64,000 nucleotides of DNA, taken from Sphaerolaimus hirsutus (Eukaryota; Nematoda; Chromadorea; Monhysterida; Sphaerolaimidae). The DNA is taken from NCBI GenBank assembly GCA_964036195.1, contig OZ038457.1, positions 19,185,147 to 19,249,146 of the forward strand. The letters are read 5' to 3'. This document shows, one piece after another, positions 1 to 64,000 of this stretch. Below the pieces are notes generated by a model that made no database searches, was not told the origin of the DNA, and was given only the letters and a program-made list of their open reading frames with translations. Every line of letters begins with the position of its first letter. Positions within the stretch are counted from its first letter, which is position 1. The position numbers were made by a program, and so were the translations under genes.

Positions 1-194
1 TTTTCATCATTATATTTTGTTGTTATTATTTATTTAATAATTAATTACAAAGTTTATTACAGGATTTTCATCAATTTTTGGTGTAACTTATTTATCACAA
101 ATTTTATTCTATAAATTATTGTACAATTCTGCTCAAAGTATGCGCTCCAGGAATAGTTCACATCAAGTTTTATAGGATGTCAATTGCGCCAACT
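1..194. other. AT-rich spacer
   Basis: Low-complexity AT-rich DNA with no coding or repeat structure that I can support. Confidence 0.5.
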
Positions 195-360
195 GGTGCC
201 ACTCCCAGACCCTGTAAAAAGCCCTGCAAAATGTAAAATGTCATGCATAGTGTCAAAAGTCATGGAAAATGCCCTGCAAAATGGCAAACGTACATACTTT
301 TGACACTTTGCATGGTATTTTACATTTTACAGGGCTTTTCACAGGGTCTCGGAGTGCCCC
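195..360. mobile_element. GGCACTCC-ended inverted-repeat element, copy 1
   Basis: The ends match as inverted repeats around GGCACTCCCAGACCCTGT. The interior is alternating TGTAAAATG and CATTTTACA words with TGTCATG and GTGTCAAAAG, forming a near-hairpin. Relatives lie at about 2188-2340, 47645-47870 and 54930-55052. No clear target duplication was found. Confidence 0.6.
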
Positions 361-847
361 CTGGTCAAGATTAAGATTTGAGTTGATAGTCAGTGAATTC
401 ATGCTCAAATTGACATGGAAATAGTGATTGCTTTTTGACAAATCGAGTTGACACTCAATCCAGTTGGCATCCAGTGTACATGGCACGCAAAAATATAAAC
501 ATGCGGAAAAAAACTTGAATGTTCAATAAAGAATTGCGATTGATCGTTAAAGCGATTGCAAACACGCAGCCAATTTTATGTGCCAATCCTTGTGATGCTG
601 TTAAAATGATTAGGATTATAGCTTGTAAATATTATTCATCAATATAAAAATATATCTTTCACTAGACAGCACAGCACACACAAGTTAGCAAATATATTAG
701 TACACATGACTAAGAAGATAAGAAAAATTGATTTGAGGGTTTGATTTGTGCGCATGAACGCGCATAGAATTCACACCTTGACAAACATGATGATAATGAT
801 CAATCACTGATAACTTTTTCACATGCATGAGTTACAACTTGCGACCA
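361..847. other. Spacer, nothing recognised
   Basis: AT-rich DNA with no gene, repeat or RNA signature that I can support. Confidence 0.4.
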
Positions 848-1030
848 CATGTGCATGACATGTTACTTTCACACTTTGCATGTTACATTCACCTTTGGGC
901 TGTGGCATGTTACTTTCACGCTTGACATGTTACTTTCACTTTTTGGCATGTCACTTTCCTCATCATGTAAAATTCCCATGATGGCATGTTATATTCCACA
1001 ACATGTTAAAGTACACAACATGTCAAAGTG
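848..1030. repeat. Degenerate array of CATGTTACTTTCAC
   Basis: About eight diverged direct copies of a 14-18 bp word (GCATGTTACTTTCAC and variants), with inverted forms towards the right end. It resembles the motif arrays inside the elements elsewhere in the window, but no terminal repeats were identified here. Confidence 0.5.
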
Positions 1031-1044
1031 GATTGACCCGTCTA

Positions 1045-1382: not shown

Positions 1383-1770
1383 CACTAGTTGACATCGAAA
1401 ACTCGTGTCAAACGAATGTCAACTAAACAACAGAAAAAAATAACAAGCATCGCACTTACAGAAACGATGAAAATTAGGTGTCACGATTAGTGATGGAAAA
1501 GCGCCATGGCGCTGGCGCTTGGCGCTAGCGCCTAAGCAAAGTGCGCCATGGCGCTTTTGGCGCTTGGCGCTATATTGCTCTGGCGCCATTGGCGCTATGC
1601 GCTGGGGTTCCGAAAAGCGCCAGGGCGCTTTTTGCGCTTGGTGCCAATGTCCTGACGCTTTTTCCACCACTAGTTACGATATAAAATTAGATATGCTCTA
1701 TCACATAAGAAAGTTGAAATCACATAATTTACCGAAATTTAGTTGACACGAATTTTGATGTCAACTAGTG
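1383..1770. mobile_element. CACTAGTTGACATC-ended element carrying a nested GGCGCC element
   Basis: Terminal inverted repeats of about 29 bp begin CACTAGTTGACATC and differ at three positions. Between them sits the 8-bp-duplication element at 1488-1672. The right terminal repeat overlaps the 3' end of the ZIG-like reading frame. A related TTGACA-rich inverted element lies near 51537-51770. Confidence 0.65.
1488..1672. mobile_element. hAT-like GGCGCC-array element (short form)
   Basis: Ends are TAGTGATGGAAAAGCGCC and the matching inverted TTTTCCACCACTA. The interior is an array of GGCGC/GCGCC words. Flanks gtcacgat and gttacgat agree at 7 of 8 bases, as expected for a hAT target duplication. 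Confidence 0.8.
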
Positions 1771-4700
1771 TCAACTGTTTGCCCAAACGAACCAAAACAT
1801 CGACCAATATGATATCGCGCCTGTCGACACCAAATGGATTTTCCACTTGGCACACGTAGTGCCTGCCAGCCGGGCCGGATGTTCGCCCGCCCTTCACGAG
1901 CAAATCGCCGTTGTGCATTCGCTGAGGGGATGTAGGGTTTTTATAGGGTGTAGGTAGGGCGTAGGGCGTAGGGCATAGGGCGTATGGCGTAGTGGTTGGG
2001 TGGGCAGACTGGCATTTTGTGTGTTGAGGTTTTGTCCACCGAATTTACAGAAGAATAACACTCCTCTCGAGTGTCTTCACTTTCTAGAACGTCCCAAATG
2101 AAAGCACCAAAGTCACCAAAATCTGACGTTGGTTTTTTTACTTTATGACGTTCGTTTTTTACTTCTTCACTTGGAATTGCCTACGGGAGGCAGTCCCGGA
2201 CCCTGTAAAATATCAAATGTCATGCAAAATATCAGAGTCATGTAAAATGCCATGGAAAATAGCAAACGTACGTTTACCAGTCTGCAGAGCATTTTACATG
2301 ACTTTTGCCACATTGCATAACATTTGACCTTTACAGGGCATTGTACCGTATTTCTCCATGTAAAGCACCCGGGTGCTATACAAAAATGAGAACCTTTTTT
2401 CAAACTTGTATAACACCCGGGTGTTATGTCAGGGGGTGTTATACACGGAAACATATCGAGTGTAAAAATGCATGCTTCCATTTTCTATGTATGATACAAG
2501 TCCTCAAATATTTAGTCTTTTTTGGTTCCCAGTGTGCAGCAATTCAATGAAAAAATCCGTGCCGCGGAATTACAATGAGTGGCGCGCGCCATGCACAATA
2601 TTTAACCAATTTCAAATCGGGTGATCTTTTCGAAACCTAGCATAGCACCCCGGGGTGTTATGCAGCTGTGTAACACCCCGGGTGTTGTGCACGGGGGGTC
2701 CTTTACACGGAAAAATACGGTACAAAGTCTGGGATAGGGTCCGCAACGCGCACTCCACCGACCACGTGTTCTTCCTGGTCGACGGGCCACTCGTTGTCCT
2801 CGTCGTCGACGAGCATCCAGTCGACCTTGTCGGGCGCCTCGCCCTGCTTGGGCTGGTCGACGCGGCAGAACAGCTGCGCCGCCGCGTCGTTCCGCTCGAT
2901 GCGCGTGTCCGTCCACATGATTATCGACGGCGGCTGCCGTGTGGAGGTTTGTGAATTTATCGGGGTCCTTTGAGTTTTTGGTTTAAAAACATATTTATTT
3001 TGGTTTTATCCTCTGATTTTAGTCTATTCTTTTTCGAAAGACACTAAATTATGGATATTCAATTCAAAGAGAAAGTGGCATGCGAAAAAGATCGAAAATT
3101 CGGACATGAAAAAACTGAAATCCTCAATCGTTCAGCCCAGTATGTACCGTTTTACCTCGAATTATCCCCCCCTTGAATTAACCGCCCCCCTCGAATTAAC
3201 CCCCCCTCAAAATGGGCTGGGGAAATAATAACCCCCCCCCTCGAAATTCCCCCCCCTTCGGAATGATGTACGTCATGTACATAATAAATACGTCATGTAC
3301 GCAATGTACATGATGTATATTACTGTTAATTTGCATTGCAGCTACACATAGACTAGTTTGTGTAGCTATCTACGTTTTTATGTCCAAATAGCATTGAAAA
3401 AATCTCTGGGAGATTTATATTTAGAAAATCTCAGAAAATATAAGATTTTTAGAGATTTATATTTTTTCCAGGATTTTCCAGAGAGATTTAATTATATTTT
3501 TTCCTGATTGAGAAAATCTCTCGAGAAAATCTCTCTATATTTGTCAATGTTCAGTGTTCACCTTCAAATTCACTAGTTCGTGTGCTTTTTTGCTTAAATT
3601 CAGCTATTTTTAACTATATATGTGCTAATATACCCATTTTTGGGTTTTTTTGCACCTATTTTAAATTTCTGCTCTCCCTTTTTTTCTGTTCTATAGCATG
3701 AAAGAGCCTATAAAAAGTCTACCTGAAATACAGTCTCTCTACTCGAATACTTTCAAAAAGAATACATAAGAGAGAGTACTGGTATTTACTTTTTCAGGGG
3801 AAATGTAAATGTATTTACTCAGTACTCTATTCATGCATTTATGAGTAAATATATACATGGAAGCAATGTATTCTATTATGAGGAAAAATGTACCTAAATT
3901 TTATTTTTGTTGATTATTTAGATAAAAAGGTGGTATTTAGTATGTGGCAGTAAAAGCTGAAACAACACATATGTAAGTTGCGTAATATCTACTCAAACAG
4001 ACGCCTCCGGTTCAAACACCTTGAGATACCTATCGATTAAATCATAGGTAATAAAGGTGAGAGATTTTATGAGATTTTTCGAATGGCAAGAGATTTTCTC
4101 AGAGATTAAATTATATTTTCGAAAATGACCCAAGAGATTTAATTATATTTTTTTCTTGGGAGATTTTCTGAGATAATATTTAATTATATTTTCTCAAAAT
4201 CGGCCATTTTTTTCAATGCTATGTCCAAATATATCCTGTTTGGACACATTTATTACCTATTTTGGGTACGCAAATGCCTACTATTTACTACGATCCTTAC
4301 GAAAATTTCTGACGAAATAATAAAAAAAAACCTCGAATTAACCCCCCCTCAAATTTTGCTGGCGAAATAATAAACCCCCATGGGGTTATTTCGAGGTAAT
4401 AGGGTATAATCAAAGTTCAGCCCTAAATCCTATCAATTATCAATCCAAAAAGCACACCCACCGTATGAACCTCATCACCAGCCCTGCGGCTGCGATCTTC
4501 CTCACTAACGCATTTGACCTGCTCGTCGGGGTCGACCTTCACCTCGATTTGCATCAACTTGGACACGCACCCGTTGTCCGCCACGCACGTGTACATGCCC
4601 GCGTCGCTGGCGCTCACGCACGGCTTGCTGAAGCGGATGGGGGTGAATTGTAGGATTGTAGGGGGGCTATTTATTCAGGTAGGTAGGCTGGTAGGGTTGA

Positions 4701-6815: not shown

Positions 6816-7680
6816 CCGTATTATCTCGAAATACCCCCAGGGGGTTTATTATTTCGCCAGCAAAATTTGAGGTGGGATAATTCGAGGGGGGGTTATTCGA
6901 GGGGGGTCTATTATTTCGCCAGAAATTTTCGGAAATTCCCCATACGCAGATGTAGAAAAATCAAACAATTACATAGATGTATACCGTATTACCTCGAATT
7001 ATCCCCCCTCGAATTAACCCCCCCCCCTCGAATTAACCCCCCCCCTCGAATTAACCCCCCCTCAAAATGGGCTGGGGAAAAAATAACCCCCCCACGAAAT
7101 ACCCCCCAAATACAGTGTAAACAGCATGTACACAACAAATAACACAGTGTGTGAACTGTATTATACAGAACACACGTGAAAACCGATGACTGAGTGATGT
7201 TAGGGGACGGTTTATGCCTATATACAGTAGTATATGCCTATAAACACTCATACGCCTCTGACAATGTTGTATTTTTCCACTTCTGAATACGGGGAATTTT
7301 GTAAACTTTCTGGCGAAATAATAGACCCCCCTCGAATAAACCCCCCCCCCAGTCGAATTACCCCCCCCCCCTCAAAATTTGCTGGCGAAATAATAAACCC
7401 CAATGGGGTTATTTCAAGGTAATACGGTATGTGTTTATAGGCATATATAACTGTATATACACAAAAACCCTTCCCTAACGTCACTTAATCATCAGTTTTA
7501 ACGTGTGTTCTGCATTGTACAGATCACAAACTGCGGTATCTGTCATGTAGGTTCACGTTACACTCAATTTTAGGGGGGGGGGGGTATTTCGAGGGGGGTT
7601 ATTACTTCCTCAGCCGAAATTTAGGGGAGTATTTCGAGGGTGGGGTTAATTCAAGGGGGGGTTAATTCACTGTAATACGG
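6816..7680. mobile_element. CCGTATT-superfamily element (family A) with a second family A copy nested inside
   Basis: Left half 6816-6983 and right half 7430-7680 together match the intact copy at 50986-51409. TA flanks both ends (6814-6815, 7681-7682). The arrays are C-runs separated by CTCGAATTAAC. The interruption is a reverse-oriented copy of the same family at 6984-7427. Confidence 0.88.
6984..7427. mobile_element. Family A element nested in another family A element
   Basis: CCGTATTACCTCG to GGTAATACGG flanked by TA at 6982-6983 and 7428-7429. Removing the element and one TA gives gatgtatatgtg, exactly the sequence in the uninterrupted copies at about 34470 and 51155. This fixes a 2-bp TA duplication. 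Confidence 0.9.
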
Positions 7681-7714
7681 TAACCAAATTTTAATTTGAT
7701 ACCTATTTTACACT

Positions 7715-8327: not shown

Positions 8328-9145
8328 CAAAGTTGTTAAAAGGTACGTACGTTTACTCAAAAAATACGCGTACGCGAGTACGCGGTAAATACGTTTACAT
8401 ATACTTTTTAAAAAAGTAATGTACTCATGTGTACGCGTACGTTTTTGAAGCATACGATTAAAGAAAACGTATTTCTGTGAAGTCAATGTGGAACATATTG
8501 ATAAGGTGACTACACTGCAATGTACACTATTTCCTTGAAATACCCCTCGAAATTGTTTCATAGTGTTAATTTTGAGGGGGGGGGGTTAAACAAGGGTATT
8601 TCGAGGGGGCTTTATTACTTCGCCAGAATGTTTTAGAACTATCAGTGCTAATTCATTGTTTGTCATGTACGCTGAGGTAGAAAATATTCACCATGTACAA
8701 GAGTATACCTATGTATTTATAGAGTTACCTAAATAAGTATGTAGGTATTTATGTAAATATAGATGGTATATAAACCCTGTTCTAACGCGACTCCGTCATT
8801 GTTTGAACGTGTGTTCTGCATTTCACAGAACACAAACTGAAGGTTTTGTTATTTATGTTCTTTTTACACTCAATTTGGGGGGGGGGGTTCGACGGGGGTC
8901 TATTAGGTAATTCGTAGTGCCCATTTTGAGTGGGGTACTTCGAAAACGTACCCAGTTCTACATATTCTATACAGAAAAGTGCTCGCTTTTGCAATTTACT
9001 GGGAATAAATTTTGTACTCGCATTTACGCGTACGTACGAGTAAAATAAAAGTATTTTACGTTTTCTATACTTTTTGATGCGTAAAATAAAAACACTTTAC
9101 GTTTACATATACTTTTAAAAAAGTTCACTAATTCTAACAACTCTG
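8328..9145. mobile_element. hAT-like CAGAGTTGT-family element, with a degraded CCGTATT element inside
   Basis: Ends CAAAGTTGTTAAAA and TAACAACTCTG. Perfect 8-bp duplication ctgtaatc at 8320-8327 and 9146-9153. Subterminal arrays consist of ACGTAAA, GTACGCG and TTTACTC words. Positions of about 8525-8948 are a worn C/G-run element of the CCGTATT superfamily. Confidence 0.88.
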
Positions 9146-10721: not shown

Positions 10722-11661
10722 TAGTGATGGAAAAAGCGCCAGGCTTTCGGCGCCAAGCGCCAAAAGCGCCATGGCGCTTTTCTGACCCCGGCGCCAAGCG
10801 CCAACGGCGCCAGAGCAAAATGGCGCCAAGCGCCAAAAGCGCCATGGCGCTTTTCTGAACCTCAGCGCCACGCGCCAATGGCGCCAGAGGGTAATGGCGC
10901 CAAGCGCCAATAGCGCCAGCGCCAAAAAATTAGTTCTACGATTTGATGGTAGAAAACTGAGTGCACTACTGTGAGTGACGTACCGCCGAAGTCATAGTTG
11001 TCTATTGAACTTTTGCCCACTCAAACAACCACTAAATCGGGGCAAAATTTCTCAAATAATCGCTCTGGAGAGATACATATCTGGTCGATTTGAGGGGGTG
11101 GGGGGGCTCGAGGGATAGTAGCGTAAAATTTAGCCTCAAGTCAGATAGATAGCTGAGCGGCCCCGGGGATAGTTAGATAGCTGGAGCATTTGTTGGGGGG
11201 GTAACCCACCCTCCAACCCCCGCCAGATTGAACCCCTGATTTAGACTGCAAGAAAGAACTGGGAGCAAAGCATAAAAGGGGATTTACCTCGATTTTAACA
11301 CCCCTGCTTTTATTCGATGTAGGCATCTATTTATATATAAAGCCTACCCTAATATAAAATCAATATTTATTCAGTTGCCTCAAAATTGATCAACTGCAGT
11401 GTCGATTTCACCCTATTATAACAATTTTTTGTTATCATGGTTGGCGCTTTTTTGGCGCCATTTAAAATGTCGGCGCCAGGCGCCAATAGCGCCACCAGAA
11501 AATGGCGCCAAGCGCCAAAAGCGCCATGGCGCTTTCTCAGACCCCAGCGCCAAGCGCCAATGGCGCCAGAGCGTTTTAGCGCCAAGCGCCAAAAGCGCCA
11601 TGGCGCTTTTTGCTTTGGCGCTAGCGCCAGGCGCCAGCGCCATGGCGCTTTTCCATCACTA
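10722..11661. mobile_element. hAT-like GGCGCC-array element, full-length form
   Basis: Terminal repeats TAGTGATGG and CCATCACTA with a perfect 8-bp duplication ctcggcgg at 10714-10721 and 11662-11669. GGCGCCA arrays occupy about 10740-10930 and 11440-11650. The 500-bp centre is ordinary AT-rich DNA with no transposase. Host length is 940 bp, close to the ~933 bp of the copy at 21855-23802. Confidence 0.93.
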
Positions 11662-13210: not shown

Positions 13211-13842
13211 CATTGCTCACATTCCGCCACATTTCCTTGACAAGCAGCACGCAAATACGCCGTCATGTTTATGTTAAGCGGCGGGCTCGCCCCAAGCGGG
13301 GGGCCGGGCCCGCGCGCCATTTCAAATGCTGTCTGGCTTGTCTCACATTTTCACTATCTTGTCAGTTTAGCTCGCTTTTCATCGGAGAAGCGAGCGGGCA
13401 AGGATTGAACTTTCACAATTGGAAATGTTGGGTAAAAAATCGGAGATTAGAGCCGACCGATTGGCGCCAAGTCAATCGCCATCGGTCTGGCCCTTAAAAG
13501 CCGATTTCACAGCTAGAATCGGCAGTGTTTGCAACCTCGTCAACTTCACACGAATCTCTTCCTAGGATCTAAATAAGCGCCGTTGTCACTTTATTAAGTC
13601 GCTTGTTTTTGGTGCTAAGTTTAACTCTTGGTGCTTTAAGTCACCTCAGTGCTTTATTTCACACCTGCGCTGTTTAAGGTGCTTTCCTCACAACCGCGCC
13701 ACTTAATTATCGCCTTTTGTCGTAATTAAGTGCCTTCTTTAAATTGCCTTATTTCTACGGTAATTAGAGTTTATTTTACGTTTTATTTAAGTAATTAATT
13801 TAGTTGAAAATTAATTCCTTCTTTCACGTATAATTTTATATA
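13211..13842. other. Low-copy segment with a 94-codon open frame, not recognised
   Basis: A more GC-balanced patch around 13250-13520 with an open frame (13213-13497, +) lacking any family signature, followed by sequence rich in TAATTAA. Similar TAATTAA-rich sequence occurs at 39060-40230, so it may belong to a dispersed element. Confidence 0.25.
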
Positions 13843-14260
13843 CCGTATATCCTCGAATAAGTCCCCCGGGGAGTTATTTTTTCGTCAGTGTTTTTGAGGG
13901 GGGAGTTATTCAAGGGTGGGGAGTTATTCAAGGGAGGGAGTTATTTTTTCCTCATAACTTTCAGGAAAACTTGCAGGTAGGTAGGTGTGTATACACTGCA
14001 TAAAATACACACTGTGTATGTGCTTTCGCTGCTGTAGGCTAACATTCTTTTGTATTTTTGTCTCACACACTGCACTGCATTTGCATTACGTTTTTTCACT
14101 TGTTGCACCATCTTCCACACTCATCACAGAGGGGGGAGTTTTTCAAGGGTGGGGAGTTATTCAAGGGGGGGAGTTATTTTTTCGTCAGCGTCTTTGAGGG
14201 GGGAGTTATTCAAGGGTGGGGAGTTATTCAAGGGGGGGGGTCTTATTCGAGGATATACGG
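13843..14260. mobile_element. CCGTATT-superfamily element, family B
   Basis: Ends CCGTATATCCTCGAATAAG and GGATATACGG, flanked by TA. Arrays are of the GGGGAGTTATTCAAGG type (complement CTCGAATAACTCCCC). About 180 bp of unique centre. Confidence 0.85.
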
Positions 14261-14525
14261 TATATTTTATTTACACTTATTTCTTTGTATTTAATTGTCT
14301 AAATAAAAACGTTCATCAAAACCTTTGGTAAACAATCTAAATTTGCTTCACACTAACTCACGTCAATTCACTTCAACTCAACTAATCACATTTTGATAAA
14401 ATAACGGAACGTCAACTAAGAGACGACGCTTCACGTCAACTTTCATACGTTCACATTTGTCCTCTTCCTCGGTTAGGAATAGGAGCTAGTTCACAAGTCA
14501 CTTCAAAAAGTTCCGTATTATTTTA

Positions 14526-15769
14526 CAGGGTTGGCAAAATCTCAGAAAAGAATAAAAATAAAATAAAAATAAAATGGAAAATTGAAGAATAAAATAAAAC
14601 AGAAAATTTCAAAATAAAACTAAAAATTGTATAAAAATTCGAATTTTTGTAAAATTGTATACAAATTCATATTTTTGTAAAAATTGTATAAAAATTCATA
14701 TTTTTTGTAAAAAAAATTTTCTGTTGTTTATAGTTCAACCTGTTCATTCGCATAGCTGGGGCAGTCCCAAGCCATGTAAAGTGTCAAAATGTTACATGAA
14801 ATGGAATGCAAAGTGTCAATTTTCATGAAAATGTTAAGTAAAGTGTCAATTGTCATGACAAATATAAATTAAAGTGGAAACTGTTAAGTAAATTGTATCC
14901 AAATCTTATCTTTTGTATCCAAATCTTAGCTTTTGTATCCAAATCTTGTTGTTTTTGTAACCAAGTCTTATGTGAACATTTGGATACAAAAACATAAGAT
15001 TTGGATACCAAAACATAAGATTCAGATACACCATTTAAACTCTGCATGACATTTGTCATGACAATTAAAAATACTTTGCTTGACATTTGAGATGCCAATT
15101 GACTCTATAGTACATTTGTCATGTAAATTGACACTTTGCATGATGTTTTACTAAGGCGCAGCACACTCCAGTCATCCTTCTACTAAAATGCAAACCATTC
15201 TTATCGATTATTGTAACTTAACACTTGTGACTATTTAGCTAACAATACCTACTGCATGCAACTTTTACAAAGTATACTCGATGAACTTGATACTCTGCAC
15301 TCACACTGATTTATGTCTCTCCTTGGAAGTGTGCCAATAATAATAAAGGCATGCAATCCTTGTAAACAAGTTAAAAAAATAATTGTTGTGGATATGTTAC
15401 ATATCGCGTTATTACATGAATGAATTTCATCAACTTTTTATGGCAATCGCATGCGTTACACATTGTTGGCATGTTTCCAGTGGGAACCACTCGTGCAAGG
15501 TGTAAAGTAACTGGGGTATAATGGAAAAATTTGTCACACGTTTTTCATGTTTAGGTCTAATTATTACATTTTTCTGACCTTGCATGCAAGATTCTGATTT
15601 TTTTGTAAAATTTCTGTAAAATTTTTGTAAAATGGTCCATTTTATTATTTTATCATTATTTTGGAATAAAATAAAATAAAATGAAACAAGAATAAAATTA
15701 AAATAAAATACATTTTTATACAATTTTTATACAATATGTATACAAATGATTTTTATAAAACCAACCCTG
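14526..15769. mobile_element. hAT-like CAGGGTTGG element with a nested TA element
   Basis: Inverted ends CAGGGTTGGCAA and CCAACCCTG. Terminal arrays of AAAATAAAAT and TTTTTGTAAAA, with an inner block of TTTGTATCCAAATCTTA repeats and CATGTAAAGTGTC words. It is colinear with the 1007-bp copy at 21994-23000 apart from the insertion at 15275-15518. Flanking octamers (ttatttta and attctggc) do not match. Confidence 0.8.
15275..15518. mobile_element. 244-bp TA-duplicating MITE, copy 1
   Basis: TA at 15273-15274 and 15519-15520. The sister hAT copy at about 22735 has the empty site (caaagtaatgg). The internal sequence matches the 245-bp copy at 44789-45033. Confidence 0.88.
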
Positions 15770-17323: not shown

Positions 17324-18003
17324 TAGTGATGGAAAAGCGTCAGAAAACAAGGGTGCGAGTAGGGTGTCAACAAAAACTTTTTGGCGGAAAACGAAAACGG
17401 AAACGGAAAAATTTTTGCACTTGCCGGAAAACGGAAACGGAAACGGAAAAAATTTTGCACTTGCCGGAAAACGGAAAACGGAAAAATGAAAGGCCGGAAA
17501 ACGGAAACGGAAACGGAAAAATTTGCCAAATATATGCCGGAAACGGAAATAATTTGCTGAAATGTTGCCGGAAACGGAAAAAATTTTGCAGAAATTTTGC
17601 TAAAAATGGGCAAAATTCACATAATTAAGAGCCTGCATGCATGTTTACCAGTTTGGCTGAAACAGAAAACAAAAAATTGAGCTGGAAAGTGAAAAAAGCT
17701 GGAAAAACAGATAATTGAACCGGAAAACGGAAAAAAGGCGGAAAAACCAAAAATTTAGTCGGAAAACGGAAAATGAGCCAGAAAAACGGAAACGGAAAAA
17801 AAATTTAGCAGCCGGAAAACGGAAACGGAAACGGAAAAAAATTTGCCTGCGGAAAGCGGAAACGGCAAACGGAAAACGGAAAGTTGACACCCTAGGTGCG
17901 AGGCGCCTTTCAGAAAGTGGGCGCCAGGCGCCAATGGCACCATGGCGCGGCACTTTTTGGCGCCTTCAAATGGCCCCAGCGCCATGGCGCCATTCCATCA
18001 TTT
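17324..18003. mobile_element. GGCGCC element interrupted by a GGAAAACGG element
   Basis: Starts TAGTGATGGAAAAGCG and ends GGCGCCATTCCATCATTT. Only short GCGCC stretches remain on each side of the insertion at 17360-17894. The outer flanking octamers match poorly (5 of 8). Confidence 0.75.
17360..17894. mobile_element. hAT-like element made of GGAAAACGG arrays
   Basis: Ends TAGGGTGTCAAC and GTTGACACCCTA. Perfect 8-bp duplication ggtgcgag at 17352-17359 and 17895-17902. Nearly the whole 535-bp interior is degenerate GGAAACGG/GGAAAACGG repeats. The open frames across it (Lys/Arg/Asn-rich or Phe/Pro/Ser-rich) are repeat artefacts. Confidence 0.93.
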
Positions 18004-21854: not shown

Positions 21855-23802
21855 TAGTGATGTAGAAGCGCCATGGCGCTGGCGCCTGGCGCTAGCGCCA
21901 AAGCAAAAAGCGCCATGGCGCTTTTGGCGCTTGGCGCCTTTTTGCTGTGGCGCCATTGGCGCTTGGCGCTGTGCTATGTAAAAGCGCCATGGCCAGGGTT
22001 GGCAAGATCTCAGAAAAGAATAAAAATAAAATAAAAATAAAATGGAAAATTGAAGAATAAAATAAAATAAAATAAAATGGAAAATTTCATAATAAAAATA
22101 AAAATTGTATAAAAATTCGAATTTTTGTAAAAATTTTTGTAAAATTGTATACAAATTCATATTTTTGTAAAAATTGTATAAAAATTCATATTTTTTGTAA
22201 AAATTTTTTATGTTGTTTATAGTTCAACCTGTTCATTCGCGACGCTGGGGCAGTCCCAAGACATGTAAAGTGTCAAAATGTCATGAAATGGGATGGAAAG
22301 TGTCAATTTTCATGAAAATGTTAAGTAAAGTGTCAATCGTCATGACAAATATAAATTAAAGTGGAAACTGTTAAGCAAATTGTATCCAAATCTTATCTTT
22401 TGTGTCCAAATCTTGTTGTTTTTGTAACCAAATCTTCTGTGAACATTTGGATACAGAAACACAAGATTTGGATACCAAAACATAAGATTCAGATACACAA
22501 TTTACACTCTGCACGACATTTGTCATGACAATTATACTTTGCTTGACATTTGAGATGCCAATTGACTCTTTACTACATTTGTCATGACAATTGACACTTT
22601 GCATGATGTTTTACAAATGCGCCCAGCACACTCCAGTAATCCTTCTACTGAAAATGCAAATCATTCTTATTGATAATTGTAACTTAACCCTTGCAACTAG
22701 CTAACAATACCTACTGCATGCAACTTTTGCAAAGTAATGGAAAAATTTGTCACACATTTGTCATGTTTAGGTCTAATTATCACATTTTTCTGACTTTGCA
22801 TGCAAGATTCTGATTTTTTGTAAAAATTCTGTAAAATTTTAGTAAAATTTTTGTAAAATGGTCCATTTTATTATTTTATTATTATTTTGGAATAAAATAA
22901 AATAAAATAAAATGAAACAAGAATAAAATAAAAATAAAATACATTTTTATACAATTTTTATACAATTTGTATACAAATGATTTTTATAAAACCAACCCTG
23001 GCCATGGCGCTTTTGGCGCTTGGCGCTATGATGCCGTGGCGCTATTGGCGCTTGGCGATGGCGTTTTAAAAAGCGCAAAAAAAGCGCCAAGGAGTTCAAA
23101 AAATAGATCATGTTTTTATTTAGAAAGACCTAGCGTGCAAAATTTTCACAAGTAAATGTGTTACTGTACGTGTATCCCAGGAAGAAAAAACCCTGCACTT
23201 GCTTATTTTGGAAACCATGTCCATGCAATTGCAAGGATATTCAAACAAATTTCCCAAATAATGGGCCTAACGGTTCCCATTGCAATTCAAATCTTGCTCA
23301 CGAGCCGTCGAGCGACGTTCAAATGCATAGTGTAGCATTATGTCGAATTGAAGTTGTTTTGTTGTTGTTGAATAAAAAGGTACCTAAATATGTACAATGG
23401 TAAAATGTCTTAAAACTTCAAACTGTAGAGGAGCCAAAGTAAATATATGTCCAAAAGCTGTCTGGAAGAATCGCATGGTGCACTCCCAAGCACCTCCAGA
23501 CAGAAAACCCTGTTTCGATCCTTTGAACAGACAGGGGTTGATTTTGGGGCGGGTACCAAGCTATCATCAGTGCTCAGCACCCTTAGCCTACAAAACCTAC
23601 TACAAAACCTAACCGAGAGGACTTAACCAATAGCTGCATTAGCATGGATGCACTTTATGAGCAAAATTTTTTTGGCGCTGGCGCTATTGGCGCTTGGCGC
23701 CAACATCCTCTGGCGCCATTGGCGCTTGGCGGCGTGTTCTAGAAAGGCGCCATGGCGCTTTTGGCGCTTGGCGCCAAAAGTCTGGCGCTTTTTACATCAC
23801 TA
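21855..23802. mobile_element. GGCGCC-array element with a hAT-like element nested in its left array
   Basis: TAGTGATG to CATCACTA. Perfect 8-bp duplication gctatcaa at 21847-21854 and 23803-23810. Without the nested 1007 bp plus one octamer the host is about 933 bp, with GGCGCC arrays at both ends and an unrelated AT-rich centre (about 23090-23670). Confidence 0.93.
21994..23000. mobile_element. hAT-like CAGGGTTGG element inserted in a GGCGCC array
   Basis: CAGGGTTGGCAA to CCAACCCTG with a perfect 8-bp duplication gccatggc at 21986-21993 and 23001-23008. Ends carry AAAATAAAAT and TTTTTGTAAAATTG arrays. The inner part has TTTGTATCCAAATC and GTCATGACAATT repeats. No transposase frame. Confidence 0.95.
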
Positions 23803-25310: not shown

Positions 25311-25739
25311 TAGTGATGTAAAGGCACCGGGGCACCGCACCGGTCCCCGGTTCTGGGCACCGGAGGGCACCAGCACCGGTGCTGGTGCAATGACCTTGCA
25401 ATTTTCAGAGGTGCCTACCGATGTCGGTGTCATCTTTTCAGAATAGCACCGGTGCTGTGCGGTGCGGTGCTTTATTCCAGGATAACTTTAGGTGCTGTGT
25501 GCCAATAGAGCCAGAATTTAGGTGCCAATTCGTTGAAATATGCAGTGGCGAAGTGCCACTAAGAAACTAAACGATTATTATTTGGGAACCTCCAGCCCGG
25601 TGCGGTTTTTTTTTTTGGTGCCGGTGCTTTTTTTGGGGAATGGCATTCGGTGTCGGTGCGGTCCGGTGCCCTTTCTAAGGACTGGAAGAGGTGCCGGTGC
25701 GGTGCGGTGCCATATTTACCGGTGCCTTTAACATCACTA
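25311..25739. mobile_element. TAGTGATG-ended element carrying a GGTGCCGG array
   Basis: TAGTGATGTAAAGGCACC to GGTGCCTTTAACATCACTA: the same outer ends as the GGCGCC family, but the array motif is GGCACCGG/CCGGTGCC. The flanking octamers do not match. Confidence 0.75.
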
Positions 25740-25921
25740 TAGGTTGATATCTGTTTGATGGCATAAAAGCATGCAGAATTGCGCTAAGCAAACACTTCAT
25801 CACTGGTCAATTTCAACAAATTACAGTCAACACTTGTCAGCTGCTCAGCTGCACAGAAAATGACAAAGTAAGCAAGCATTTGGTAATAACATTGGTAACT
25901 TTTCAAAGTGAACGTGAATTA

Positions 25922-31832: not shown

Positions 31833-31893
31833 TATTATCTTCAATAAACTCAAATGCACAAGTGGGTCAACGTTCTCAGCAGGTGGATACCTA

Positions 31894-41400: not shown

Positions 41401-44400
41401 ATCTTGTGTAAGGGTGCCCCCAAGTATTTAGTATATATACCCTAGCGGGCACACCCCTCAGGCGACCCTTGGTGCAGAAAAAAATTTTTCCCACATATTT
41501 TCTGGAAAATATAAATGAGAATTCCATACAAATTTTTGTTCCTGATGAAATTTAAATTTTTAATAAAAAATTTTCTGCACATGTTAGACTAAAAAGTTTT
41601 TTAGCATTGGTAGATAAAAGTATGTACAACTCTTCTACCCCCTCAGAACCCCCAGAATCCCCACACAATAATGGTGTTGTTGATCAAACTGAAAAAATTT
41701 TTTGGAGAAAAACATAGGTTTTAGAAAGTGGACAATCCACTATCACAAGCTATTCATGGAGCACATGGGGGCCAGAATTGGCTTGTTTGGTGTCAGGGGC
41801 AACATATGGCTGCTCCTGGGCCCCATTTTTGCGCTCAAGTATTTTTTATAGCAAATGATAAAAATGGCCCTGTGTAAAGAGGGCACTTGCGTGACAGCGC
41901 GTCCGACGCCTGCAATGTCGCAACACAAATCACAAAATAATTGTGCTCATTCAATGTGGGCACTAATTATGTGTAAAAAATCTATGGGGGCCAATGGGCA
42001 ATGTGCCATATATCTAGTTTGAATGTGCCATACAAACAACTAGGTCATGTCCAGAACGTTGAAAATCATGGTTTTTCAATTACAATCACAATTTGGAATA
42101 TCACAAAGTTCAAAATGATTGTTGAGATGGCTTCATAGTACATGTCTGCATATTGGGGGCCATTTTTATGTGGGGGTAGTGGAATGGGGTCAAAATATAC
42201 CCACAAATGTCCAGCGGGTCAAAATATGGCTTTTGGCAAGCCGCAAGGAATTTTTATTTTTTGAAAAAGCACCAACACAAGTGTATTCATCACTTGTGTT
42301 GTCAGCAAATCAAATAATGGCTGCACACTTTCCGGCAGCTATATTTTGTGTGGTTTTTTGAAAATTCTCATTTATATTTTCCGGGAAAAAATTGGCAAAA
42401 AAACTTCATCAATCTGTAGCAGCAAAACAGGGGGGAGCCATGGGGTGCCACTTGGCATATACATAGACAAATGTTGTGGGCACCCCCACAACAAATGGCA
42501 GCCATATTGGGCTGCATGTATCCCTGTGAGATTGTTGTGAAAAATGAGGTACCTGTTTTCTCATTTATATGTGCCACCAGTTTACAACGTGTTTCAATAT
42601 GAAATGCAACCGGCGTTATACCTAACAACAATCACGGTGAATTTCAGCAAACAGTCAATCAATAATAAGGTACAGACATAGGTAAATACCGTATTTGCTT
42701 GAATACTTCTCCCCTCGACTCGAATAATTCCCCGTCTTGAATAGTTCCCCCATGTTAGATGAGCGGGAAAAAATTATCCCACAACGAATAATTGAGGCTT
42801 CTAGTTCCGAATGTCGGTATCTCCATCATTTGTGTTTTTCCAAAATTGCATTTGAAACTTCAACGTTGCCCGAGCGGGCAATTTTCAAATGAGGACCCTT
42901 GCCCAAAACTTTTTGAAAAGCTTATTAATTTCTCTACATTTTCCATATTTACAACCCTGTGGCCGGCGTATATACCTAGAGTTATAATGATTTGATTGAC
43001 AGCAGGTCAGCAGACTCAGTGGAGATACCCTGTTTCGAGCGATTTTTTTCAAAAAAATCACTCGAAACAGGGTATCTCCACTGAGTCCTTGGGATCAACG
43101 CGACGCTGCGCGGCGCGGTTGTGCTGCCGTTCTGCTGGCCCATGGCCCCACTTAGAGCAAATTTCTTACCCAGAGCAGTGGAGATACCCTGTTTCGGACA
43201 AAGATTTTTTGGAGATACCCTGTTTCGGACAAAGATTTTTTTGGAGATACCCTGTTTCGGATGATTTTTTTCAAAAACTGAATGGGAATTCTATACCGTA
43301 ATTCGGATGATTTTTTCTGTTTTGTATGGGAATTTGGACTGATTGCTTCAAATCTATACCGTAATTCGGATGATTTTTTCTGTTGGTGGAGATACCCTGT
43401 TGCGAGTGAAATTTTTGGTGGCTCTTTTTGGAGATACCCTGTTTCGAGTGAATTTTAGCCAATTTGAGGGTGGAGATACCCTGTTTCGGATGATTTTTTT
43501 TTGTTTTTTTCTAAAAATCGACATATATATATCTCAGGAACGGTATAAGATATTGAAAAAATTCTTTTGCTATCACGAAGAAATAAGTGCACTTATCACA
43601 GATCCGCACTTGACTCACTTTTTTACACTTTGGTCTTTACCGACATTCGGAACTAGATGTCTCAATTCCCCTCTTTGTGCATACCGTATTACCTCGAATT
43701 ATCCCCCCCCTTGAATTAACCCCCCCCCCCCCCTCGAATTAACCCCCCCTCAAATTGGGCTGGGGAAATAATAAACCCCCCCTCGAAATACCCCCCCCTT
43801 CGGAATGATGTACGTCATGTACATAATAAATACGTCATGTACGCAATGTACATGATGTATATCACTGTTAATTTGCATTGCAGCTACACATAGAGTAGTT
43901 TGTGTAGCTATCTAAGTTTTTATGTCCAAATATATCCTGTTTGGACACATTTATTACCTATTTTGGGTACGCAAATGCCTACTATTTACTACGATCCTTA
44001 CGAAACTTTCTGACGAAATAATAAAACCCCCCCTCGAATTAACCCCCCCTCGAATTAACCCCCCCTCAAATTTTGCTGGCGAAATAATAAACCCCCATGG
44101 GGGTATTTCGAGGTAATACGGTATGATAATTTTTATATCCACCTTGAACAATAATTGCAGGTTATTTTGTTTATAAAGCAATTTCATGAAATTGCTTTAT
44201 TAGGTACAGAAAGTTAATCGAAACATTCTTGGGAATCACGTTGACAAAAATTTGTCCCTCCCTTGAATAATTCTTCCTATCGAATAGTACCCCCTCAAAA
44301 AGGTTGATGAAAAATTTATACCCCAGGGGAATTATTTGAGTAAATAGGGTAGTAGATTTATTCAAAAATGTGCATGTTTAACGTGCGGCAGATAATTTGA

Positions 44401-50717: not shown

Positions 50718-50985
50718 ACCGTAAATCCTCGAATAAGCCCGCCCTCGAATACCCCCCCCTGTTGGTAGCGTGAAGAAAACTACCCCCTCTATAAACTCCC
50801 CTCCCCCTATTTTATGCGTGGGATCGACGTAAATACATGTACAAAAACCGTGTAAGTAAATATGTAAATATTTATGTGTAAATACAGTAAAAATAATGTT
50901 TTATTTTGCAGCTGATGTTCAGTAGCATTAATTTCATTGCATTAAATAAGTATTTATGCATGAATTTATCCGCATTCATATCATA
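50718..50985. mobile_element. CCGTAAATCCTCGAATAAG left-end fragment and spacer
   Basis: A family B left end starts just after TA at about 50718 and its array is short. No right end. It begins 23 bp after the stop codon of the membrane protein, so it may lie in that gene's 3' UTR. Confidence 0.55.
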
Positions 50986-51409
50986 CCGTATTACCTCGAA
51001 ATACCCCCAGGGGGTTTATTATTTCGCCAGCAAAATTTGAGGGGGGGATAATTCGAGGGGGGGGTTTATTCGAGGGGGGGGTCTATTATTTCGCCAGAAA
51101 TTTTCGGAAATTCCCCGTACGCGGACGTAGAAAAATCGAACAATTACATTGATGTATATGTGTTTATACGCATATATAACTGTATATACACAAAAACCCT
51201 TCCCTAACGTCACTTAATCATCAGTTTTAACGTGTGTTCTGCATTGTACAGATCACAAACTGCGGTATTTGTCATGTACGTTTACGTTACACTCAATCTT
51301 AGGGGGGGTATTTCGAGGGGGGGGGTTTATTATTTCCTCAGCCGAAATTTAGGGGGGGTATTTCGAGGGGGGGGTCAATTCAAGGGGGGGTTAATTCGAG
51401 GTAATACGG
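50986..51409. mobile_element. CCGTATT-superfamily element, family A, intact reference copy
   Basis: 424 bp, CCGTATTACCTCG to GGTAATACGG, with TA at 50984-50985 and 51410-51411. The core is uninterrupted and includes both empty sites used to interpret the 6.8-kb and 34.3-kb nests. Confidence 0.92.
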
Positions 51410-51419
51410 TATATTGATC

Positions 51420-51877: not shown

Positions 51878-52121
51878 TCACGATGGCAAACGAGGCATTC
51901 GAAAATTCGAAAATATTTTCGAAATTTTTATTTCACGCTGGAAAAAAACACTTAAAAATCGATTTTTTTTTCAAAAAAATCGAAAACTGCCCAAAAAGAT
52001 TCGAAAATTTTAAAACTCAATTCGAAAATTAATTTAAGGAAAAATTCGAAATTTCGAAAATTCATTTTGGAAAAAAACACAAAAATTTTTTATACTTTTT
52101 TCGCAGGGTTTGCCATCGTTA
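51878..52121. mobile_element. hAT-like element with TTCGAAAA array
   Basis: TCACGATGGCAAACGA to GTTTGCCATCGTTA. Flanks gtcgtgag and gtcgtgac agree at 7 of 8. The 244-bp interior is almost entirely TTCGAAAATTTTCGAAA-like palindromic repeats. Confidence 0.88.
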
Positions 52122-59900: not shown

Positions 59901-61454
59901 ATTATAAGTAAATACATCCAGCTTCACACCAGTCCTAAATTTGTTTAAACTTTCCCCACACAAAAGTTTTTTTTGGGTGGGCGCTAAACAAACAGATGGA
60001 TTTTTGGGATGGTTTTTGGAGTATTTCAAGCATTTTATATGATTTTGCATCTCTTAGATGGATTTTATGTTCAATCCTTTCACATCAAGAATTTATTTGA
60101 GCATTAGAAAAATCTCCATGCGTACAAAACCAAATCGGATAAACCCTCAATGCACTAAAAATTGAATAGCCATTATTCTAATCATGAGAAAATGTAAAAA
60201 TAGTACGTGGGAAGCATGAAAAATTTACATACATTATTTTTCCAGCAGTGTGCTTCCCACCATTTCTGCTAAAAGCCGTGGTTCCAATAAAAATTATTTG
60301 TGAATGGACATGCAAATGGAAGAAAAACGGGTTAAATTTACCAAAAATATATTTTAAAAATTGAGGAATTTCACAGAATTTTTTCATATTTGTTACGTCA
60401 AATACATATGAAACTGTGGTCCATAAAAATCAGAAAGTGATGGAAAACAACTTATATTATGAATCTGATATATTGTTAATGAACTACCATTAATTTATTC
60501 CCTTGTGAATAATGATGGATGTATAGAAAGATGCCAGAATACAATCTATATTACCAAAGTAATCAGTATTGAGAAAAATATATCATAATATTTATAACAT
60601 AGTACCCAACATTTATAAAAAGTAGGCTTCCTATATTTATTGATAAAATGTATAGCCATTCACATGAGAACGCATTCAATTTCACAGACCAGAATTCGCA
60701 AAACAAAAATATTCACATTTAAAGTTGAGCAAAGATTCAATCATTTGGCACATTTCCAACATCATTTCCATGCCATAGTAAATGGTATACTAGTACACAT
60801 GCACGCACACAGAATGAGCTGTATATTCTAACTGGAAAAGCATGAATACTAGCTGGAGAGAAAGTTTCACGTGACAGGACACTTGTGCTGCCACGGAATG
60901 CAGGGTGGCCCACTAAAAAAATTTAAGGGCATTTTGAATTGAATTGTGATACTGGTTGATATTTGGTTTGATAAATTCACATGAAATGAAATATTGAGAA
61001 TTTGTCAAAAACTGATCTTGCAAGAAATCTCACAATGAAGTAGACATATTTCTCCATTGAGTGTCTTTATTGGATTCAAGGCACAGCGCAAGGTTTTTCT
61101 GTTTGCATATTATGCAAAATGGAATTTTTTTAACTATAAGGAGTTCAATGAAACGGCTAAAATCTTAACAATAAAATTATTTTACATTCCTTGAATGATG
61201 TTTGATTTTTTAAATTTCAGTTTCCAAATCCAAATGTAAACTAGTTTGCAGAGGCACCTTGCACCCGGTGCCCAAATGGATTTGATCTACCCCTCCAAAA
61301 GAATGTTGCTCGAAAAATGTATACGGGGTAGGGATGAAAAAATGTGATTAACATACACTTAATTGCAATTCAGATTTAATGAGAAACAAATTCAATCTTT
61401 GAGCCTCAGTGCTCTCAAAAACTAATATGTAAATAGAACATGCTAGACCACCAA
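57000..61454. other. AT-rich sequence upstream of the visible phosphatase exons
   Basis: Expected to be intron or 5' flank of the phosphatase. I looked for the rhodanese and kinase-docking exons and found none. No transposon with clear ends, RNA gene or promoter could be supported in this 4.4 kb. Confidence 0.4.
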
Positions 61455-62935
61455 ATAAACACCTTCCCGATCAAGTCCGGCCGCCTATATTTTTTTTCAC
61501 TTCGCAGGCCATATCTCCAGTTGTGGGAGGGGTGGAAAACTAAAACTTGGGTGGTATATAGGCGCAACCCCCCACTACCCCGCATGAATAAATGGGGCAG
61601 CGGCGACTCACTATAGAGGGGGTCGCCATATACGTGAAAAAAATTTGGAGCGTTTTCACTGTCCCGCACAGGTCCGGCCCCCGGTTGATTTCTTACACTG
61701 CGGGTCCCGTATCTCCAGCTGTGGGAGGGGTATAGATCTAAAATTTTTGGGGATGTGTCGCCAACACCCCTCCCCTACTATACACTGGCCAGGCGGTTTT
61801 TGGCAACTCACCACAGTGTGGGGTGCAAAGTTTTAAATTTATTAAAATGTTACTGCCCCACACAAGTCCAGCATCCAATTGAATTTCAAAAAATGGACAC
61901 TTTTGTGTTTTTTAACACTTAATTTGGTTGACAATGTGAAATAAGCATGAAATAGCCTCTAAAAAATATCTTATCCAACCTAAAACTGGCCACCACATGA
62001 ACCCCTTCCCCAAGTGGGTGACAAAAAATCACTTTTTACAACTTTTTTATGAGACACTTGAATGGCTGGTTTACAATAATTTATAGGGGAGGGTTAAAGG
62101 TCTCAAGTTGTGTAAAAAATCTTACCTCAAAAATGCCTTCATAAGAAAATTTGCTGGGGGTGAATTTCAAATTGTAAAAATAACATCATTGCAGGAACAA
62201 AAATAGGCAAAATTTACAATTTTAAATTTACCCCCAGCAAATTTTCTTATGAAGGCATTTTTGAGGTAAGGTTTTTTACACAATTTGATACCTTAAACCC
62301 TCCTCTATAAATCATTGTAAACCAGCAGTTCAAGTGTCTAATGAAAAAGTGGTAAAAAGTGATTTTTTTGTCCCCCACTTGGGGGGAGGGGTTCGTGTGG
62401 TGGGCAGTTTTAGGTCGGATAAGATATTTTTTAGAGGATATTTCATGCTTATTTCACATTGTCAACCACATTAGTGTTAAAACAACACAAAAGTGTTCAT
62501 TCTTTGAAATTCAATGGGATGCTGGACTTGTGTGGGACAGTAACATTTTAATAAATTTTAAACTTTGCACCCCACACTGTGGTGAGTTGCTAAAGACCGC
62601 CTGGCCAGTGTATAGTAGGGTAGGGGTGTTGGCGACACATCCCCAAAATTGTAGATTTATACCCCTCCCACAGGTGGAGGTACGGCACCCGCAGTGAAAG
62701 AAATCAGTGGGGGCCTGACCTGTGTGGGACACTAAAAAAGCTGCAAAAAATTTTCGCACTCGGCGACCCACCCTGTAGGTGGTCGCCGCGACCCCTTCCA
62801 TTCATGCAAAGTAGAGGGGGGTTGCGCCAATATCTACCCCAAGTTTTAGCTTCTGGCGCGTCCTTGAACTGTAGATAGGACGGCAGAAGTAAAATAAAAA
62901 ATTGGGGGCCGGACTTGATCGGGAAGGTGTTTATA
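61455..62935. mobile_element. 1.48-kb foldback element (long inverted repeat)
   Basis: Two arms of about 720 bp are imperfect inverted copies along their whole length, meeting near 62195. Outer ends are AAACACCTTCCCGATCAAGT and its inverse. Matching interior words include TGGCCAG...TGGTGAGTTGC and ACCCCCAGCAAATTTTCTTA. No coding region or target duplication recognised. Confidence 0.9.
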
Positions 62936-64000
62936 ATCTAAAAAAGCATCCCCATCTCATCCAAATCTAGTCGAGAAAATGCGACAAAAAAAATCTTTGG
63001 CATAATTTTTATGTCCACAGAACAGCCCCCACAAACGGGGTACCCATTCTCAGTAGTACCCGCGAGGCCAGTAAAAACGAAAGTGCGCATTTGCAACTCG
63101 CGCAGTTGTCTAACGCCCACTCAAAATGGAAGTAATCAGAATGAGACTTGCCTGGTGGGCTAGAAGCTGATATCATGTCGCTAAGAAGCGTGTGGGCGCG
63201 GGGAAATGGACCAGTGTCAGATGATGAAAAGATTAGCCAAATGTGGGCACCTTTTAGTATCTTGTGGGTGATATGGGAATTGAAATGGACATGTGCTACT
63301 TTGCGACGTTATTTGTGTGACGATTTTTATGGCCGTGAAACTTTATGAGAGTGTATTATTACGCCAGACAAGGCAAAAACTTGACAGACAAGACGATGAA
63401 ATCCTACGCACACACTAAAAAAAGTTCCAATAAAAAAATGGAAAAATTGTTTAAGTAAAAGTTATTAAAAATGATTGTTTTAATTATTCATGTCGCATGT
63501 GGCATCCACTTGTTATAGCGTGCGCTACATCAAGCTTGTCTGTACGGAGTTGAAAAAAAAGTTACCACCAACGCAAATGATTACATAATCCAAACACGTG
63601 CCATCATAATTTATTCAACACTTTGAAAGGCATATTCAACACATAAATGTTTTACCTTTCAGTCGAGGCTGGGATTAAAAAGTTACACGATTTCGTGCTG
63701 ATGCTAGCGCGATAAAAATGTCAAAGGCACGAAAATTGAGACTAATTGACATTGATCAGCAGGATTCATTTTTGCCGGGTTAACCAAAAAAAATTTTATC
63801 TTTGACATTCAAGTGGGCCAAGGACGTAGCCAAGAGGGGGGGGGGCGGGGGGGGCGGCCGCCCCCCCCCCTTCCCGGGCCGGACCAAAAAATGTGCCAGA
63901 AATGGCACTTTCAGAGAACGATTTTGTCGACAGTTTGAAAAAAATTTGCGCGCAAGCGCGCATGTTCACTTCACAACATATATTTTCGGCTGACCGGTCT
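62936..64000. other. Terminal spacer with a GC homopolymer patch
   Basis: No gene recognised. At 63835-63880 a G9-G8 run abuts GCGGCCGC and a C10 run, preceded by GGACGTAGCCAAG. This looks like one end of another inverted-repeat element cut by the window edge. Confidence 0.35.

Follow-up and report, generated by a model that had tools for sequence, protein, structure and literature searches.

A 64,000-nucleotide stretch of the Sphaerolaimus hirsutus genome (contig OZ038457.1, positions 19,185,147 to 19,249,146; here the window, part of contig C13) is populated by transposable elements whose short terminal repeats run into arrays of one short word, each family having a word of its own. The elements form two groups, one with 8-bp and the other with TA target duplications, and the locus raises the question of how a family comes by its private word: the initial annotation had proposed that the ends stay constant while arrays are replaced wholesale, by one process such as motif amplification or hairpin-templated copying. 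We analysed the window together with loci sampled from the genome (L-numbers; 348 Mb in 762 contigs were searched), omitting from most analyses L006, which overlaps L005. In the sole group of elements that was resolved, that with the tip CAGAGTTG, the words were recoded in place with the spacers mostly kept, and we consider it probable (roughly 0.68), as judged from sequence, that the arrays are hAT subterminal repeats acting as sites for the transposase, recoded in place after a change in its DNA-binding domain.

Three versions of one word in the CAGAGTTG-tip elements

The reference copy for the recoding comparison lies in the window:

29092..29900, + strand: hAT-type non-autonomous element, A version (15 AAGCGTA; motif AAGCGTAA), tips CAGAGTTGTTAAAA and CAGAGTTGCGAAAG, exact duplication CAGTACGA

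Elements of this group carried three versions of the word at matching positions of both ends, namely AAGCGTA (A), AAGTGTA (B) and AAACGTA (C). In an alignment of three A copies (the reference, L024 and L034), one B copy (L017) and one C copy (L031:1239-2504), A and B differed by C>T at motif position 4 in 15 of 15 sites, whichever the orientation or strand of the motif, and showed no further difference across 100 motif columns, while their spacers differed at 5–7 of 95 positions on the left and 17–19 of 103–104 on the right. A and C differed by G>A at position 3 in all 14 gap-free sites, plus one further change, and tips, spacers and palindromes were mostly retained across the three versions. 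An old C copy (L031b, L031:4979-5448) showed mixed changes with the appearance of plain decay, and the end stretches of the C copy L057 held 11 AAACGTA words together with one AAGCGTA.

Genome-wide, the pattern GGAAAGYRTAAGYRTAAGYRTAA (Y/R) matched at 2381 places and the pattern GGTATTTTTGGAAANNNTAANNNTAANNNTAA, in which the triplets are free (NNN), at 5250 left ends, both with a backward control of 0. The first 100 listed of the 2381 places comprised 42 pure CGT, 38 pure TGT and no pure CAT, i.e. 80 were pure, where 20000 permutations gave 22.5 on average and at most 40. Similarly, the first 100 listed of the 5250 comprised 41 with ACG, 24 with GCG and 15 with GTG in all three triplets and 20 mixed or decayed, so that 80 were again pure against a permuted 13.4 (maximum 26 in 20000 permutations). 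There were thus three pure spellings and no fourth among these 100, in a pattern that fixes TAA after each free triplet, such that words lacking TAA could not show. Hybrids were rare in the same 100 (two BBA and three ACC). We also noted on contig C1 (G000:C1, e.g. 5183434 and 5184157), among the first 100 listed, ten same-strand pairs of C left ends 711–827 bp apart; three downstream members carry AAGCGTA as their first site, and the pairs may be double-headed elements.

To follow whole elements, 20 Y/R-pattern places were fetched, picked by their left triplet (4 TTC, 8 TTT, 7 CCC and 1 ACA). Fourteen of them yielded both ends, the right end being taken as the tip match with the best duplication; L038, L043, L044, L045, L047 and L049 had no right end and were left uncounted in the coherence test and the tree. 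All eight B left ends were joined to B right ends and all five A left ends to A right ends, the fourteenth copy being a decayed A, and the 8-bp duplication was exact in 13 of the 14, the remaining copy being off by one. In three B copies from independent sites, all picked for that triplet, the third place still reads AAGCGTA, the only such word retained, which is what recoding one site at a time would leave behind.

In a tree built with FastTree from 8 A, 9 B, 2 C and 1 decayed A copies with the motif columns masked, B stood apart from all others (support 0.993) and C was placed with A at a weak support of 0.580. Spacer distances averaged 0.135 between A and B, 0.087 within A and 0.055 within B, the corresponding motif distances being 0.148, 0.009 and 0.023. 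Within A the word was thus about ten times less diverged than the spacers, a value that the picking of copies by left triplet brings down to some extent. Since motif version and spacers follow one tree, and the words were recoded with the spacers kept, wholesale replacement is rejected for A, B and C. The initial annotation had expected tip and array trees to disagree and had named their co-divergence in one tree, the outcome obtained here, as the result that would speak against it; in-place recoding within one tree equally provides counter-evidence to hairpin-templated copying in this group.

An alternative account, in which gene conversion, hairpin-templated copying or local amplification moves whole arrays onto constant ends, would accommodate the uniformity of the words within each copy and the differences in array length among elements, as tandem unit duplication predicts. 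It also has a candidate case outside the CAGAGTTG group: L019:6325-6914 and L023:8311-9064 have in common the tip TAGGGTTCAAAC at one end, followed by GACTTTTCG, and carry the words CGGGAT and CGATAT, respectively. The other end of L019 reads TAGGGTGCAAAC, and a CGATAT array lies behind TAGGGTTGGGAC in L060, where one end was seen. The interiors of L019 and L023 align poorly, and array replacement is therefore possible there, so that the proposed independence of tip and array has a possible instance in TAGGGTTCAAAC and none in the CAGAGTTG group. This account is nevertheless unlikely to explain A, B and C, in which many motifs stand singly as 7-bp words between spacers that are unique, at two ends and in both orientations, every word has changed while the spacers mostly stay, and the version follows the spacers across a split supported at 0.993.

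hAT membership and a possible change of recognition code

The hAT dimerisation domain (Dimer_Tnp_hAT, Pfam) gave 28 matches genome-wide, of which 10, in 9 loci, were examined. Nine of these ten lay within paired-tip array elements flanked by an 8-bp duplication with at most one mismatch: TTCGAA elements in L029 (GGTATATA) and L030 (GCAGGAAG; both by eye), AAACGTA elements in L031 (GCACCATG) and L057 (CCCAAAAC), CGATAT elements in L033 (two matches; GGCGCTTG/GGTGCTTG) and L055 (TACTGTAC/TACTGAAC), and CGGAAA elements in L034 (CTTGTGCA) and L056 (GTCACAAC/CTCACAAC). At the tenth, in L032, CGATAT arrays were present with unpaired ends. The domain inside their elements identifies these four word families as hAT, evidence that covers TTCGAA, AAACGTA, CGATAT and CGGAAA and does not extend to GGCGCC, GAGATTT, AAGCGTA, AAGTGTA, AAAATAAAAT and the other families. 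The 8-bp duplication expected of hAT elements was found except at the GGTGCC element, and the 8-bp-duplication families as a whole are probably non-autonomous or decayed hAT transposons. The transposase remnants seen were C-terminal fragments only, and four dimer fragments, one per word family, were 32–44% identical in the pairs that aligned, indicating that the word families probably each had a transposase of their own.

The distribution of the domain also bears on a scenario in which A, B and C represent hAT families that separated long ago and were perhaps acquired independently, their slow recoding having taken place elsewhere in unseen autonomous parents while selection kept the spacers. 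The C copies L031 and L057 contain the dimer fragment, and tblastn (E 0.01) found none in the A and B copies (29092 of the window, L024, L034 and L017); moreover, conservation of tips, spacers and palindromes extends to all three versions, and the spacers may hence be constrained. However, the spacer divergence between A and B (0.135) only modestly exceeds that within A (0.087), pointing to a recent split, and hybrids with one unconverted site are present in the same genome, which makes the scenario quite improbable.

With the hAT domain in four word families, the tip-and-array anatomy and three pure versions at the same positions of both ends, the arrays are most plausibly sites for a transposase. 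In-place recoding could proceed as follows. The subterminal words would be multiple copies of the site bound by a separate DNA-binding domain of the transposase, the short tip being handled by the catalytic core. When the specificity of that domain changed, the repeated site would be recoded in place, position by position, as selection favoured the more mobile copies; tip, spacers and spacing would mostly persist, and the result would be a new family reading a code of its own. That the word is the binding site, that a transposase change was the driver and that selection reworked the sites is what we infer from this pattern. That A, B and C are sister hAT families separated by a switch of recognition code at about 15 words, i.e. 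that transposons can speciate by stepwise recoding of all their sites, we propose tentatively, at somewhat under even odds. If true, recoding was perhaps an escape from titration by the miniature inverted-repeat transposable elements (MITEs) of an older family, and the same logic may lie behind many of the other private words in both superfamilies.

Several points weigh against recoding driven by the transposase. Both tallies above come from the first 100 listed (of 2381 and of 5250), all on contig C1, and picking by left triplet lowers motif divergence at 3 of the 15 sites. Each of the three ACC hybrids is the downstream member of a same-strand pair, and they may therefore be one special lineage. 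The third-site hybrids fail to group as one clade in a tree that is weak, that tree does not separate A from C as a clade, and the direction of change is unrooted. No DNA-binding domain was linked to any motif, zf-BED having only 8 matches genome-wide, whose flanks were not read; seven lie on one stretch of C1 (7.47–7.68 Mb). Finally, both recodings are C:G to T:A transitions, which raises the possibility that CpG deamination, or an enzyme of the repeat-induced point mutation (RIP) or APOBEC type, converted AAGCGTA to the other versions: the step from A to B replaces the C of a CpG by T, that from A to C a G by A, hence C>T on the opposite strand, and the B copy L017 has 5 CpGs against 35 and 43 in two A copies, so that CpG loss in B extends beyond the motif. 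Yet random deamination predicts AAGTGTA and AAGCATA equally often (single changed sites number 6 CTC/TCC against 6 CAC/ACC/CCA), and among the first 100 listed of 2381 places the pure classes number 38 and 0, respectively, which largely refutes a random process; accordingly, CpG deamination was rejected as the source of AAGTGTA. Furthermore, the C version retains its CpG, CpGs outside the motif partly survive in L017 (in TACCGGTA, CCCGGG and the tip TTGCGAAAG, the others being lost), and the change from CGGGAT to CGATAT, if the two are homologous, includes a transversion. A context-specific deaminase is conceivable, and conversion by deamination is on the whole very unlikely.

Six of the zf-BED matches cluster at G000:C1:7466186-7488779, probably in a tandem array of host genes.

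The accessible parts of the published accounts provide close parallels. The maize Ac transposase binds cooperatively to AAACGG repeats, and Ac/Ds resembles the present families in its short 11-bp tip, its many short transposase-binding repeats and its non-autonomous derivatives, and differs in that here one genome holds many word families and, for one word, three versions occupying the same positions (PMC3260210). Herves binds a repeated CGATTCAT, different hATs having different sites (PMC3143072), Hermes engages palindromic subterminal repeats through several BED domains (PMC10368747), and in Kat1 the hexamer AATTCA recurs between the ends (PMC4763223). In all three, as in Tol2 and Tag1 as cited in these papers, the transposase binds at or close to a repeated motif specific to the family, with a palindromic arrangement in Hermes, but they are single elements, and the portions of these papers open to us describe no in-place recoding between sister families. 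Beyond hAT, CACTA elements combine conserved terminal inverted repeats (TIRs) with diverged subterminal words, two types occurring in one species, and coevolution with the binding protein has been proposed, although these belong to another superfamily and, in the part seen, their words are too divergent to reveal the steps (PMC2613891). In Aedes aegypti, 10 of 12 long-TIR MULE families have 9–15 bp subterminal tandem repeats, and Muta1 and Muta5 have subterminal repeats behind a short terminal motif; the available text holds no comparison of words with spacers within a family (PMC5225508). As far as these partial sources go, private arrays are therefore already known for hAT, CACTA and MULE elements, and the breadth that had seemed unusual is less so. 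A paper on coral MITEs proved to concern, in the part available, piggyBac-linked elements and not the same phenomenon (PMC2872659).

In-place recoding of all sites in sister families was not found in the open-licence literature, as far as its accessible text extends (absence is unproven), and a text search of that literature for TACCGTATTT returned 0 occurrences in each of the ten papers listed of 1,462. We regard coordinated in-place recoding as the notable finding. How a transposase and its dispersed sites switch partners jointly is an open problem, since all the sites have to change along with the protein; here the path becomes countable, one genome holding thousands of matching left ends in three versions along with rare hybrids. 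The genome further supplies at least a dozen naturally occurring site words from which the DNA code of hAT DNA-binding domains might be learned, and consensus-based repeat annotation could wrongly lump or split such families.

Private arrays among the 8-bp-duplication elements

An element finder that looked for 12-bp inverted ends of hAT form with a flanking 8-bp duplication (exact, or with one mismatch and near-identical tips) made 32 calls in the window and sampled loci (285 kb, without L006) and none in the reversed sequence; its output includes calls nested within one another, and the call at 13000-15769 is doubtful. The families, by word and tip, included GGCGCC (TAGTGATG), CGGAAA (TAGGGTGTCAA), CGGTAC (TAGGGTGGCAGA), CGGGAT and CGATAT (both TAGGGTTCAAAC), GCTTTT/AAAAGC (TAGGGATGG), TTCGAA (TAACGATGG), AAGCGTA and AAGTGTA (CAGAGTTG) and CGTACG (CAAAGTTG). 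Further families were GAGATTT (TAGCATTG) and AAAATAAAAT (CAGGGTTGG), and L031 holds GGGTC (TAGGGTTGGGAA) and AAACGTA (CAGAGTTGTGC) families. The short TIRs TAGTGATG, TAGGGTGTCAA, TAGGGTTCAAAC, CAGAGTTG and TAACGATGG are of C/TA..G type, a likeness partly built in by the form that the finder required; TAGCATTG (GAGATTT) and TCACGATGG (the element at 51878) deviate from it. The CGGAAA family resembles Ac (TAGGGTGTCAA together with AAACGGAAACGG). The other hAT-type elements of the window are as follows (strand given where assigned):

1488..1672: short GGCGCC element, duplication GTCACGAT/GTTACGAT (7/8)
3389..4221: GAGATTT element, tip TAGCATTGAAAAAA, exact duplication TGTCCAAA; uninterrupted host copy at 43682-44123
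8328..9145: TACG/CGTACG element, tips CAAAGTTGTTAAAA and CAGAGTTGTTAGAA, duplication CTGTAATC
10722..11661: hAT-type element with GGCGCC/AGCGCC arrays, exact duplication CTCGGCGG
14526..15769, + strand: second CAGGGTTGG/AAAATAAAAT copy, candidate boundaries; pieces 88–91% identical, own 8-bp flanks mismatched
17360..17894, + strand: CGGAAA (GGAAAACGG) element, tip TAGGGTGTCAAC, exact duplication GGTGCGAG
21855..23802: hAT-type GGCGCC element split by 21994-23000, exact duplication GCTATCAA
21994..23000, + strand: CAGGGTTGG element with AAAATAAAAT arrays, nested in the GGCGCC element, exact duplication GCCATGGC (by eye)
25311..25739: GGTGCC/GGCACCGG array (GGTGCCGG), TAGTGATG at both ends, without a matching duplication (by eye)
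32765..33819, - strand: second CGGAAA element, flanks CTCACAAC/CTCACACA (6/8, by eye); 33122-33202 encodes a 27-residue stretch resembling the L034 hAT dimer fragment
38404..41272: long GGCGCC element, exact duplication CTTGTAAC
51878..52121: TTCGAA (TTCGAAAA) element, tips TCACGATGGCAAAC and TAACGATGGCAAAC, duplication GTCGTGAG/GTCGTGAC (7/8)

Copies of TTCGAAAA elements in L025, L029 and L030 have exact duplications (L029 and L030 by eye). At 13000-15769, the tips CAGGGTTTG and CAGGGTTGG and an exact duplication ATTCTGGC enclose the AAAATAAAAT element, which has its own left tip at 14526; the structure is possibly double-headed. A sequence of about 250 bp has two copies, 74% identical, at 15269-15520 and 44783-45035, one of them inside the AAAATAAAAT element. 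Elements of the CAGGGACGTATCCAGG/CAGGGGTCTCC kind, flanked by 8-bp duplications and bearing long G-runs behind one of their tips, lie in L024, L025, L027, L032 and L055 and may be a further array family.

Private arrays behind related tips in two groups, as the initial annotation described them, were borne out for most of the arrays that it named, by 8-bp duplications or by TACCGTA...TACGGTA ends. GGCGCC, GGAAAACGG, AAGCGTAA, GAGATTT and AAAATAAAAT lie in elements with exact 8-bp duplications and TTCGAAAA in one matching at 7/8, while GGTGCCGG stands without duplication or enrichment. The observation was thus largely real and its interpretation partly right: ends are constant only in their outer ~8–12 bp in the hAT group and ~9 bp in the TA group, and wholesale replacement of arrays fails in the CAGAGTTG group. 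In the hAT group the bases that follow the common part vary with the array.

That the words might be ordinary micro- or minisatellites, grown within MITEs without any binding function, was assessed from their enrichment and location. The motifs counted in the window exceeded all 40 dinucleotide shuffles, except the 8-mer GGTGCCGG (2 against a shuffle mean of 0.78 and maximum of 3); ACACCCGGGTGT occurs just once and CACCCGGGTG twice. Named elements contained 18 of 18 GGAAAACGG (in 1,590 bp), 14 of 15 AAGCGTAA, 14 of 16 AAAATAAAAT and 56 of 78 GGCGCC, so that four of six words lie mostly inside elements; with 12 of 23 GAGATTT and 6 of 21 TTCGAAAA the concentration is weaker, both words being also present outside. 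The latter, and the low complexity and variable length of the C-runs of the TA families and of AAAATAAAAT, would fit satellite growth, whereas the CAGAGTTG-group motifs are spaced, lie at both ends and are less diverged than their spacers (0.009 against 0.087 within A). Plain microsatellites were rejected on the concentration of words inside elements, and growth without function is highly improbable.

TA-duplication families and other features

The TA families begin with a common TACCGTATT (TACCGTATA in F2), their ends reading TACCGTA...TACGGTA:

2344..2722, + strand: F5 (ACACCCGGGTGT palindromes)
3145..4406, + strand: F1, interrupted by the GAGATTT element
6982..7429, + strand: F1
13841..14262, + strand: F2 (TACCGTATATCCTCGAATAAGTCCCC)
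25920..26356, + strand: F2
31467..31834, + strand: F3 (CTTCTAATAGAAGGGC motif), ends paired by eye
34296..35231, + strand: F1, interrupted by F4 at 34497-35007
34497..35007, + strand: F4 (CCTCTAATATAAGGTA motif)
43682..44123, + strand: F1 (TACCGTATTACCTCGAATTA + C-run arrays), uninterrupted
50984..51411, + strand: F1, uninterrupted counterpart of 34296-35231

The insertion at 34497-35007 has a TA target duplication, as comparison with its uninterrupted counterpart reveals, and the GAGATTT insertion in a TA element likewise has an uninterrupted counterpart. Motifs present in the window include CTCGAATTA/CTCGAATAA with C-runs, AATAGAAC/GGGC, TAATATAAGG and the palindrome CCCGGG. Behind the outer ~9 bp the next bases vary with the array, the inner TIR words being ACCTCGAATTA plus a C-run (F1), TCCTCGAATAAG (F2), TCTTCTAATAGAAGGGC (F3), ACCTCTAATATAAGG (F4) and TCTCCATGTAAAGCACCC (F5), plus others. 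In F1–F3 the inner half of the TIR itself serves as the array unit, and TIR and array therefore vary together: words from another element's TIR covered 14–29% of the interior, against at most 12% for words of other families. This comparison was clean for F1 and F2, fair for F3 (own 0.17–0.18, F4 words 0.10–0.12) and weak or failing for F4, F5 and F8: one of the two F4 elements was matched by F3 words and not by those of the other F4 copy, F1 words matched F5_L020 more than the words of F5 itself did, and F8, for which its own ends were used, had a score of 0. F1, F2, F4 and F6 also have in common a palindromic start and a TTTCG/TTTCC..CAG spacer (by eye).

The TA families look like the hAT-type ones in plan, with a constant TACCGTATT followed by a family word repeated inward. 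They share the TA target and the inward-repeated word with Tc1/mariner-like MITEs, and differ in that no transposase was found here: DDE_3 gave 23 matches, three of which were read at 1.5 kb, none having TACCGTATT ends (pogo DDE_1 was not searched). Similar fish elements begin with TACCGTATTTTCCG. ISRm11, tried as a name for the TA group, led nowhere.

Elsewhere in the window, Rfam and tRNA scans gave no match, and an exon within 53966-54463 (- strand) resembles the C-terminal part of animal MAP-kinase dual-specificity phosphatases. A 1480-bp inverted repeat at 61455-62934, 85.6% self-inverted along its full length, is perhaps a foldback element. Tandem repeats comprise a GTAGGGTTGAAGGGTT minisatellite of ~530 bp at 4683-5214 with a higher-order unit of 80 bp, a GAAGTGAAAAGA array (12/24-bp) at 30534-30777, and an ATCGAC array at 48890-49061 within a serine/threonine-rich open frame of 193 codons (48702-49283).

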